Shown here: piece by piece, positions 3,317 through 61,013 of the stretch
Layout: every line of letters begins with the position of its first letter
Position numbering within the stretch: the stretch's first letter is position 1
The notes under the pieces: generated by a model
What the model saw: only the letters and a program-made list of their open reading frames with translations
What the model was told of the DNA's origin: nothing
Database searches by the model: none
Program-made: the position numbers and the translations under genes
NCBI GenBank assembly: GCA_002005505.1
Contig: KV908610.1
Location: 77,496-141,495 of the forward strand
Reading direction: 5' to 3'
Origin: Botryococcus braunii
Taxonomy: Eukaryota > Chlorophyta > Trebouxiophyceae
Length of the DNA stretch: 64,000 bases

Positions 3317-5508
3317 TCAACCATTAAAGGCTCCCATACACATACCAAAGTTTATATAGGTACAAAGTTGAGTAAGATCTGTCAAGAGCTGATTACATTC
3401 GACAGGATTCACCCGTACCGTGCTGATAGTCTGAGGAGAAGTTCCAGCTTCACATTGTAGCAGTGCCCCCAGTGGCTGGAAGCCTTGCTGTAGAAGTAGG
3501 GGGCTGTTCATCACACCAATATATTGTAGAAGACCTTCGGGCCAGACTTTTAAGCCAGAAAGCGATGTGAGCTGGGTGTTTCCTCGTTGGCCGATAATTA
3601 GCGTAGCGGGAGCACAGACCACATTTGACAGGAACGACAGGTCTGAAGTACTGAGATATGATACAATGATACTGTCCCTAACATACACCATATTTCTTGG
3701 AAAACCATTGAAAGAGTAGCTAAGCGGACCTTGCGGTTGACCACTTACAAACATACCGTCTCCTGTGGCATACAACAGATTGGGGAAAGTGTCAGCTATA
3801 TTGAGTACCGTGCCAGTGGGGGGCGATGAAAAACCAAGGAAGGATGGGGGCTCCAGGTTGAACGAGCCTGCACATCCCCAGAGTCTACATACTTCAAGCC
3901 CTGAGAGTGCCGATGGAGGCACACATTTACCTTCACCGTTTACCAGCCATGTGCCTGCCTAATGTAGAATGAGAAAAGTTGATAGGACATTCCTTAGACA
4001 GATAGGACTGGGCTTGTAGTGGACAAAAGCCCCAACCATTGACTGAGATGCCTGCTCATCTGCTTGCTGCGCTCATCTGAATGCATGTGAGTATGTGACA
4101 AACTAAGCAAATCTTGGGGGAAAGAAGTTGTGTCCTGAAACATGCATGACAAACCTTGCAGTAGCCAGGTCGTTCTTCGAAGTGTCAAACGGGTGGACTT
4201 GGGAATACAAACAAAGATCGGTGTGTGACATCGCATGGTAGCTCTGTCACGCGATTATATCAGAACCAAAACATCTACCTCAATCATGCTAGAAGATATG
4301 TATGTTAAACGGCTTACGATGGACTTCAGGCTTGCCCACGGAATAAAGAGCAGCCCTTGCAAAATGGCGGGACGTACTCAATGCTATAATGTTGCCAATC
4401 CCAATGGCGGCAAAGTATTTCTGGAAGTCAGGTGTTACGTACTGAGAAGCGTCAAGGTTCTGCACATTTGCTGCAAAAATGTAAACATCCGCGCCGAGAA
4501 CCGTGCAGTTAGTACCACCAAAAACGTTCGATGTGCAGTTGCCCAATCGCACATTCAAATTATTTCCTTCAAATACCGCACAGGTCCCATCTCCCCTGTC
4601 TATCACTGAGAGAGTTGCATCGAGCGGATTACAATCTGCAAGCACACCTCAGCAGTGTTTAGAATCCATTCTTGCCAACGATGCCGGAAACCTCTACACA
4701 CTCGGGGCGTTAGCTGATACATGTTAGCACCCCGCCACTCTCAGCACATGCAGCCAGTTGGCGAATCTCAGCCCTCTAGGACTGTACCTGAAACAAGCTT
4801 AAGCTGAAACAAGCTTAAGTAAATGGAAATAAGCTTATTTCCATTTACCCACGTGCAGGAGGTTACAAGCCACAGAGTTCGTGCCTTTTGTCTTCTGTGC
4901 CTCGATTTCGGGCTTGTTATGCACATGGAGAGTCGCAATCAGCTTGCAACACCCCCTACAGTTTATGGACCATCATCGTAACAATGCAATGATGCCCTAG
5001 CTAGGGGCCACCATCATACCAATGTGACTTCCGGCATACTATGTGCAGCACAATCCTACATAGGAAACCAACATCAAATATTGTGAACCACCAACATGCC
5101 ATGTGAACCTGTATTTGTTTTGGATTAACTTACAAAGTGCATGGCCATCTCCAGTTCTTTGAAAACACAGAATGCTGGCTCTTCACTTGTGGACACATAA
5201 TCAAGGGGGTTTGCCCTTATTGCTAAGCATGGAAGGCAAAGAGCAGAAATAAAAACCCTCATATACACAGAGCGCCTCAGGCGATCGTGGCACTTTCAGC
5301 AACCTTTATAAAAAGCATTGCCAGTGCACATGCAAGCTTATTCATCTCCTGGAGAGGTAAACACCAGCCCCAACAGAAGACAGCCTCAGCAGGGCACAGG
5401 CGAGGCCAAGCAATAGCACAAGCAGAAGGCATTGACTGTCTCCACCAATCCCTCACCACTAACTCCAAGGGAGGGGGGAGAGGATCAAGGTAATGTAATG
5501 GCAGCTAC

Positions 5509-6049
5509 CTGCAGGAGGTAAGTTCGCAAATTGTTCGGGTGGGCATGTAATTGGAGGCGGCGGAGGAGAGGGTGCCGGAGGAGGTGGGGACGGCTCAGGA
5601 GGAGGTGGGGGTGATGGTGGTGGTGGCAGAGGAGGTGGGGGTGAGGGTGATGGTGGAGGAGGTGGCGGCGATGGGGACGGAGGAGGAGGTGGTGGCGGCG
5701 ATGGAGGTGGTGGGGATGGTCGGGGCGGAGGAGGAGGAGGTGGCGGCGGTGGGGACGGGCGAGGTGGCGAAGGAGGAGGTGGTGGGGGAGGGGGTGGGGC
5801 CGGTGGGGATGGGGGAGGTGGCGAAGGAGGAGGTGGTGGGGGAGGGGGTGGGGCCGGTGGGGATGGGGGAGGAGGTGAAGGAGGCGGTGGTGGGGGAGGG
5901 GGTGGGGATGGGGGAGGAGGTGAAGGAGGCGGTGGTGGAGGGGGAAGGGGCGGGGGCGGCTTTGGAGCAGCTTGTGGGGGCGGAGGTGGAGGTGATGCAC
6001 AGGAAGGGCATAGGCCTGTATTTGCAAATGCGCAGTACCTGTTCCAGCA
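5509..6049 (-). CDS. Gene A exon 7: Cys lead and poly-Pro linker
   Basis: Starts at CACACAG/TGCTGG with C-W-N-R-Y-C and TGLCPSC, then about 145 residues of PPPPSPPPP-type sequence, and ends ITCPPEQ...PPA before a phase-1 donor GTAGCT. The matching gene B exon is 412 bp. The extra 129 bp here are internal duplications of Pro codons, so linker length is still changing. Hydroxylation and O-glycosylation of the Pro residues would be expected in a green alga but are inferred. Confidence 0.8.
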
Positions 6050-60800: not shown

Positions 60801-61013
60801 GAGTGCTCCAATGCTGCCGAGGTCCGTGGTCTTAATAACATCTGTAATATACTGATTGTCCGAAGTGTCGTCCGGAAGTGTATAGTTGTGAGGTAATGCT
60901 TCAGAAAAAATCTGTGAATGAACCTCTTGGCAGACACTCAGGAGTCCGGCCAAAAGAGCTGTAAAATACAACATCTGCGATAAAAAAGGCCTTTCAGAGA
61001 CCTGCGTGAACAA
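54232..61013 (-). CDS. Gene E: six-exon modular Cys/Pro-rich secreted protein, complete, shortest linker
   Basis: Exons in transcription order: 60592-61013 (ATG 61011-61013), 59742-59827, 59004-59264, 57249-57896, 56050-56328, 54232-54842 (stop TGA 54232-54234). Sum 2307 nt, 768 residues, phases 2,1,1,1,1. Residues approximately: 1-34 signal-like (a second Met at 14 precedes LYFTALLAGLLSVC and may be the real start); 85-137 Cys-rich domain with CRKPGISVRGCC; 141-169 Pro linker; 170-256 first M1; 257-425 first M2; 426-472 Pro linker; 473-565 second M1; 566-768 terminal M2. The first M1 lacks the usual GDGTC (it has GNSTC) and PDFQKY. The donor after exon 5 (GTTTGC) is unusual, so that border is less certain. 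It is the first gene in transcription order and the most diverged. Function is unknown; secretion is inferred. Confidence 0.83.
55028..55135. repeat. About 37-bp repeat, three units, in intron 5 of gene E
   Basis: Three nearly identical copies of gaaagttacatctgggatcc ggcattatggctaa. A related single copy occurs elsewhere (49205-49248, 52133-52178, and on the other strand at 58625-58675). Confidence 0.9.
55740..56045. repeat. 25-bp minisatellite adjoining the donor of gene E intron 5
   Basis: About twelve units of gaggctggtcatgcaggtac gaggc. Copies nearest the exon are degenerate (agatagaaagc) and reach within about 5 bp of the proposed donor at 56049. Confidence 0.9.
56329..57248. other. Intron 4 of gene E
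   Basis: Contains repeated caagtcagcartcgtcag units next to exon 5 (56343-56420), (CA)n (56518-56557), a purine tract with G-runs (56562-56695), and a (CT)n(GT)n compound tract (57086-57182) just inside the donor side. Confidence 0.75.
57249..57896 (-). CDS. Gene E exon 4: first M2 module with short Pro linker
   Basis: VAYLVTDQIPVPLNPSFLPT, MRNISNFGKVRCLTNLVLMS with NPYLLSTTGLQNI, LLNNRLLT, KMLQCSNA, TNCTLGLGSANSFCSYI and TALCPPVPPPP. The Pro run is only about 40 residues, then AACPLQFDIGIG at a GTGAGT donor. The plus-strand Gly-rich frame is a shadow. Confidence 0.85.
57897..59003. other. Intron 3 of gene E
   Basis: Contains a T-run followed by a G-run (about 58028-58082), roughly 32-bp repeats with gccagctagcca and gtgcccaacag (58365-58520), (CA)n (58539-58622) and a C-run/(CA)n/(CT) stretch (58894-58970). 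A copy of the dispersed element lies at 58625-58675. Confidence 0.75.
59275..59490. repeat. About 46-bp repeat, five units, next to the acceptor of gene E intron 2
   Basis: Five diverged units of the form caagatccctttttcaggtc atgaccgcccttttttgaaagta. The array starts about 10 bp from the exon 3 acceptor at 59265. Confidence 0.82.
60592..61013 (-). CDS. Gene E exon 1: signal peptide and Cys-rich N-terminal domain
   Basis: Two candidate starts: ATG at 61013, or ATG at 60974, just before the hydrophobic core. After HSQ the mature part has an NYT sequon, an acidic stretch, LGSIGALLKGNF, and the core DTACFFVSLCRKPGISVRGC followed by PPSPGNPLGTCV. The donor is GTGAGT in phase 2, as in C and D. Confidence 0.85.

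Follow-up and report, generated by a model that had tools for sequence, protein, structure and literature searches.

Tandem genes for predicted secreted, proline-rich wall glycoproteins with likely L-domain-like modules in Botryococcus braunii

In wall proteins of the green lineage, proline hydroxylation and glycosylation of proline-rich runs give rods. Pherophorins carry heads around a polyproline rod, and the sexual agglutinins of Chlamydomonas combine a long proline-rich shaft with globular parts. The receptor-L fold class binds insulin and EGF in animals. Pherophorins are described as hydroxyproline-rich matrix proteins of Volvox (PMC10762512). The LRR-extensins (LRXs) of plants are reported to be wall-attached and to bind RALF (PMC7357788, PMC12759080). 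Ecm33 fungal wall proteins are described as having leucine-rich repeats together with motifs similar to Recep_L_domain (PMC5872309).

The locus considered here lies in a window of 64,000 nucleotides from the green alga B. braunii (contig C310, positions 77,496-141,495, in an assembly of 176 Mb). Light-harvesting genes of the assembly agree with a green-algal host. For one light-harvesting exon, the highest summed score went to a two-domain LHCI-2 chain (best single stretch 93.6 bits); the best single match was 7pi0_G (122.9 bits), a Dunaliella chain, ahead of Chlamydomonas and Bryopsis chains at about 115 bits and land plants at about 102 bits. Plastid rbcL had no match in the assembly, and SQS_PSY matched five times, at only two places. 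Three kinds of module were followed by profile search: 12 copies of M1, 12 of M2 and three of N, all on the minus strand. When the window was resampled five times (first-order), none of the three profiles matched. Most of these modules are profile members by construction (12/12 M1, 10/12 M2 and 3/3 N, i.e. 25/27); the weight rests on their pairing and on the clean controls. The M1 and M2 modules are paired, and the pairs make up five tandem gene copies: A, B and D hold two pairs apiece, C and E three. N is a cysteine-rich module of about 90 residues that follows a hydrophobic start, and among the five copies it was found only in A, B and D. The features of these three genes are as follows:

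54232..60974, minus strand: gene A, 755 residues; exons 60974-60592, 59827-59742, 59264-59004, 57896-57249, 56328-56050 and 54842-54232; ATG, stop and GT-AG introns
60594..60974, minus strand: N module of A (profile E 1.1e-55; a profile member)
59004..59264, minus strand: M1a exon of A, 261 bp (exon model and profile)
57249..57896, minus strand: M2a of A with a polyproline run of 40 residues (exon model and profile)
56050..56328, minus strand: M1b exon of A, 279 bp (exon model and profile)
54232..54842, minus strand: M2b of A, final exon (exon model and profile)
38785..48138, minus strand: gene B, 1015 residues; exons 48138-47759, 47327-47233, 44552-44292, 43036-41591, 40141-39884 and 39392-38785
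41591..43036, minus strand: M2a of B with a proline-rich linker of 287 residues, part of it from a 39-bp repeat array
27422..34466, minus strand: gene D, 1116 residues; exons 34466-34132, 33705-33593, 32090-31830, 31380-29698, 29158-28901 and 28122-27422
29698..31380, minus strand: M2a of D with a long proline-rich linker

A, B and D are each predicted to have six exons with GT-AG ends and a frame open throughout. The order in A is N, a small proline-rich exon, an M1-M2 pair, a proline linker and a second M1-M2 pair. One phase scheme runs through all three models: N (ending in phase 2), the small proline-rich exon (2,1), M1 (1,1), M2 with polyproline (1,1), M1 (1,1), and M2 to the stop. In D, no in-frame ATG was found in the first exon (34466-34132). 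The other two copies and a relic are arranged differently:

12780..19281, minus strand: gene C, seven exons, 982 residues, three M1-M2 units; exons 19281-18473, 17834-17696, 17188-16848, 16450-16016, 15344-14933, 14090-13833 and 13336-12780
3317..10106, minus strand: gene E, tandem copy of C; M1a and M2a from 10106 to about 9295, M1b from 7994, M2b about 7165-6731, M1c 4635-4378, M2c 3867-3317
23701..24448, minus strand: relic of a C/E-type copy, 0.75 kb (DNA match to E and C)

The DNA of E (2,864-11,133) is 88-91% identical to that of C (12,314-20,312). In the second M2 of E, a one-base difference in frame relative to C lies near 7,030-7,040, and on this sequence E is probably broken by a frameshift there. 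The 5' end of C was not found in the window, and the profile search of the window found no N module for either C or E. The preliminary description had counted five genes with a shared hydrophobic N-terminus. Three of them stand with an N module, although D lacks a recognised start codon; C is incomplete at its 5' end and E is the probably broken copy. The hydrophobic start was seen in A, B and D only. Alternation of M1 and M2 is borne out by the paired modules on one strand and the empty resampled windows, and the matching phases by the common scheme of A, B and D. Most genes had been described as having M1 exons of 258 or 261 bp; seven of the 12 modules fit, with 261 bp in A.M1a, B.M1a and D.M1a and 258 bp in B.M1b, D.M1b, C.M1c and E.M1c. 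Of the remainder, A.M1b has 279 bp, C.M1b (counterpart E.M1b) has 341 bp, and C.M1a and E.M1a are fused to M2. The proposed relic is real: its two pieces (23,701-23,897 and 23,968-24,448) match upstream and intron DNA of E and C at 68-72%.

Several marks of local rearrangement accompany the genes. At their 3' ends, C is 90% identical to B through introns and exons alike (12,807-14,370 against 38,863-40,426), and E is 84% identical to B (3,380-4,956 against 38,899-40,426), while the rest of these genes is not so similar; this pattern suggests gene conversion or unequal crossing-over. Minisatellites lie between and inside the genes: 22,151-22,936 (45 bp, 17.6 copies), 2,541-2,913 (29 bp, 12.9 copies), 52,793-53,990 (periods of 40, 80 and 160 bp) and 55,751-56,039 (25 bp, 11.6 copies). 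Such arrays may drive local duplication. A dispersed repeat of 0.26 kb, 90% identical, occurs at 11,200-11,458 and 35,295-35,562. A short proline frame upstream of E (11,418-11,260) was considered as a linker exon and rejected, as it overlaps this repeat.

M1 and M2 together form one unit, about 270 residues long. They share one frame in relatives on four other contigs (C26, C43, C19 and C303), and the first M1-M2 pair of C and of E shares one exon (19281-18473 in C, holding M1a and M2a together). Because these pairs are unsplit, the intron between M1 and M2 in A, B and D splits what is one unit. Intron position differs among the paralogous units: there is none in M1a-M2a of C (18,473-19,281), one within M2, in phase 0, in M1b-M2b of C (16,016-17,188), and one at the M1/M2 boundary, in phase 1, in A, B and D.

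The family reaches far beyond the window. Two whole-genome searches gave 56 and 112 matches, which together make 155 distinct stretches distributed over 26 contigs and often arrayed on the same strand; they represent modules or exons rather than genes, six of them are N modules, the counts are lower bounds, and the weakest matches reach E 0.009, so that chance ones are possible among them. Internal stops occur in two of the 112 matches of one search and in 10 of the 56 of the other. N, which was sought in the 56-match search only, has three copies each on C310 and C354. The earlier picture of a single locus was thus too narrow. On C26 (397,749-405,057; L041-L044), four tandem M1-M2 units lie within 7.3 kb and are 71-81% identical; they are a good set for structural work. 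Some matches have large open frames close by, of up to 4,877 residues; these were dropped as family proteins after two pieces were examined: the L056 frame consists mostly of the sequence letter N (357 of 516 places in the piece examined), and the L055 piece gave no match to the unit profile at E 1e-3. A separate array on C294 (73,230-91,791; L001, L002 and L005) holds three near full-length protein kinase matches, in tandem on the same strand and without stops.

The modules differ in how far they can be placed. In the scanned frames, no Pfam or NCBIfam family matched M1 or N over cut-off, and M1 had no clear fold match, so the earlier label of an unknown family still applies to these two. It does not fully apply to M2, which is predicted to have a solenoid-type fold and is likely receptor-L-domain-like, or at least LRR-like. 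The receptor L domain model (PF01030) had no match in the scanned frames of the window, and the A5 and A6 members from the window gave none either. Among genomic relatives it had four matches: one over cut-off alone (22.2 against 21.8 bits), two only together with their neighbours, and one under. Scored as single proteins, three relatives reached 16.8-20.2 bits, and the C26 relative, trimmed to the unit, 21.8 bits. The overlap of these four matches with the 112-match list is not independent, since the query was the C26 match itself; it was replaced by a profile built from the window only. No LRR model passed its cut-off: the best were LRR_4 (E 0.0023 in one of ten M2 members) and LRR_9 (E 0.11 in two of ten), and LRR_4 in D scored 15.6 bits against a cut-off of 27.

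Sequence features of the chains point to the cell exterior. Proline-rich runs contain 52-80% proline, are 18-287 residues long, and lie over repeat arrays in B and D. Extensin-like S-P(3+) motifs number 6 in A, 11 in B, 11 in C and 7 in D, and NxS/T sites 15-22 in A, B and D and 3 in C. A and B combine long proline-rich runs with a hydrophobic N-terminal stretch, the pattern of hydroxyproline-rich glycoproteins. Secretion of the A, B and D products is predicted from their N-terminal stretch, judged by eye and by hydropathy. By hydropathy, none of the three most hydrophobic windows of A, B, C or D is a C-terminal segment. Series of Y-x-Y were not seen (0-1 per protein in A, B, C and D). The extracellular matrix role put forward earlier fits the N-terminal stretches, the proline runs, the S-P(3+) motifs, the NxS/T sites and the lack of a visible C-terminal anchor.

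Selection acts differently on old and young copies. The diverged copies evolve under purifying selection. When B is compared with D, N, M1a, M2a, M1b and M2b all show more synonymous than amino-acid change (p 2.7e-6 to 7.9e-14, with synonymous sites near saturation), as do M1a and N when A is compared with B, and the four tandem relatives on C26 have dN/dS 0.22-0.33 in six of six pairs. Constraint is not clear in young copies: those in the window give dN/dS 1.14 (C/E M2c), 0.61 (C/E M1c) and 0.71 (B/C M2), with p 0.18-0.76, and young relatives give 1.12 (C43 pair, p 0.85) and 0.82 (C19 pair, p 0.36). C/E M1b is constrained (dN/dS 0.08, p 1.6e-5) and C/E M1a-M2a intermediate (0.40, p 0.09). Either decay or freedom to diverge may account for the young copies.

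With moderate confidence, the products are best explained as predicted secreted hydroxyproline-rich wall glycoproteins, in which two or three M1-M2 units, with a likely L-domain-like, ligand-binding M2, sit on polyproline rods. The same features could also describe a plain wall filler, in which the rods matter and the globular units, having no outside ligand, serve only as crosslinkers through disulfides or self-association. High proline, many cysteines, S-P motifs and proline runs that range so widely in length over the repeat arrays of B and D would suit a filler; the globular units, however, are constrained and resemble a binding fold, and we consider a filler very unlikely. Least probable among the readings weighed is a set of secreted immune-type receptors or decoys for microbial ligands, comparable to secreted leucine-rich-repeat proteins of plants. 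The predicted solenoid of M2, the expansion of copy number as tandem arrays and the rapid change in young copies are in its favour, but no membrane anchor is seen, the scanned window frames contain no signalling domain, and long proline rods suit wall scaffolding.

Mating or recognition was the other role proposed at the outset, such functions often evolving by local duplication. Diverse solenoid heads on rods might serve sexual agglutination or allorecognition, with diversity supplied by tandem duplication. A large, often tandem family and young pairs near a dN/dS of 1 (C43, C19 and C/E M2c) agree with such a repertoire, and heads mounted on polyproline shafts are reminiscent of agglutinins. 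However, none of the near-neutral values departs significantly from 1 (p 0.36-0.85), the tested diverged pairs are constrained, and the copies are scattered on 26 contigs rather than gathered in one mating locus; this makes a mating or self-recognition repertoire quite unlikely. Only the young pairs approach neutrality. A bolder reading, unlikely as it stands, is that a green alga independently built about a hundred secreted receptors, with L-type heads in twos and threes on extensin-like wall rods, tandem birth and death, and a role in self/non-self or partner recognition. M1-M2 would then be a new member of the L-domain clan, and N a new cysteine-rich wall domain.

As wall glycoproteins, the products would work as follows. 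Hydroxylation and glycosylation would turn the proline-rich runs, with their S-P(3+) motifs, into stiff rods, the likely beta-solenoid head of M2 would bind some ligand of the wall or cell surface, and the polyproline rods would tie and space the heads within the matrix. With two or three heads per chain on rods of very different length, a chain could bridge matrix ligands, and tandem duplication may have diversified the ligands bound. If this holds, the family adds another head-on-rod wall-protein architecture beside pherophorins and LRR-extensins, and an L-domain-like fold in a large algal secreted family; wall building, wall reading or cell recognition in non-volvocine green algae would become testable on a compact cluster. 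M1 and N are modules without a family model, and M1-M2 has enough copies to define a Pfam family and to obtain a good structure.

Among known systems, the sexual agglutinins of Chlamydomonas resemble the cluster in architecture, with a long proline-rich shaft and globular parts. The pherophorin domain (PF12499) had no match in 10 window frames, nor genome-wide, where the control also matched nowhere. Measured against the receptor L domain (PF01030; L1/L2 of the insulin and EGF receptors), the scanned window modules fall below the Pfam model and no membrane span is seen; unlike in those proteins, M2 follows M1 and has polyproline on its flanks. To our knowledge, Ecm33 proteins have no polyproline rods. 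The window proteins resemble them as predicted wall proteins with an LRR/Recep_L_domain-like part, but have no hydrophobic C-terminal tail (by hydropathy of A, B, C and D). With LRXs they share a predicted extracellular solenoid-type domain and an extensin-like S-P(3+) region; they differ in that no LRR model passes its cut-off, Y-x-Y series are absent, and each chain carries two or three heads separated by rods. Plant LRR-extensins and fungal Ecm33 are nevertheless the nearest working analogues, and the proteins of this cluster might work in a similar mode.
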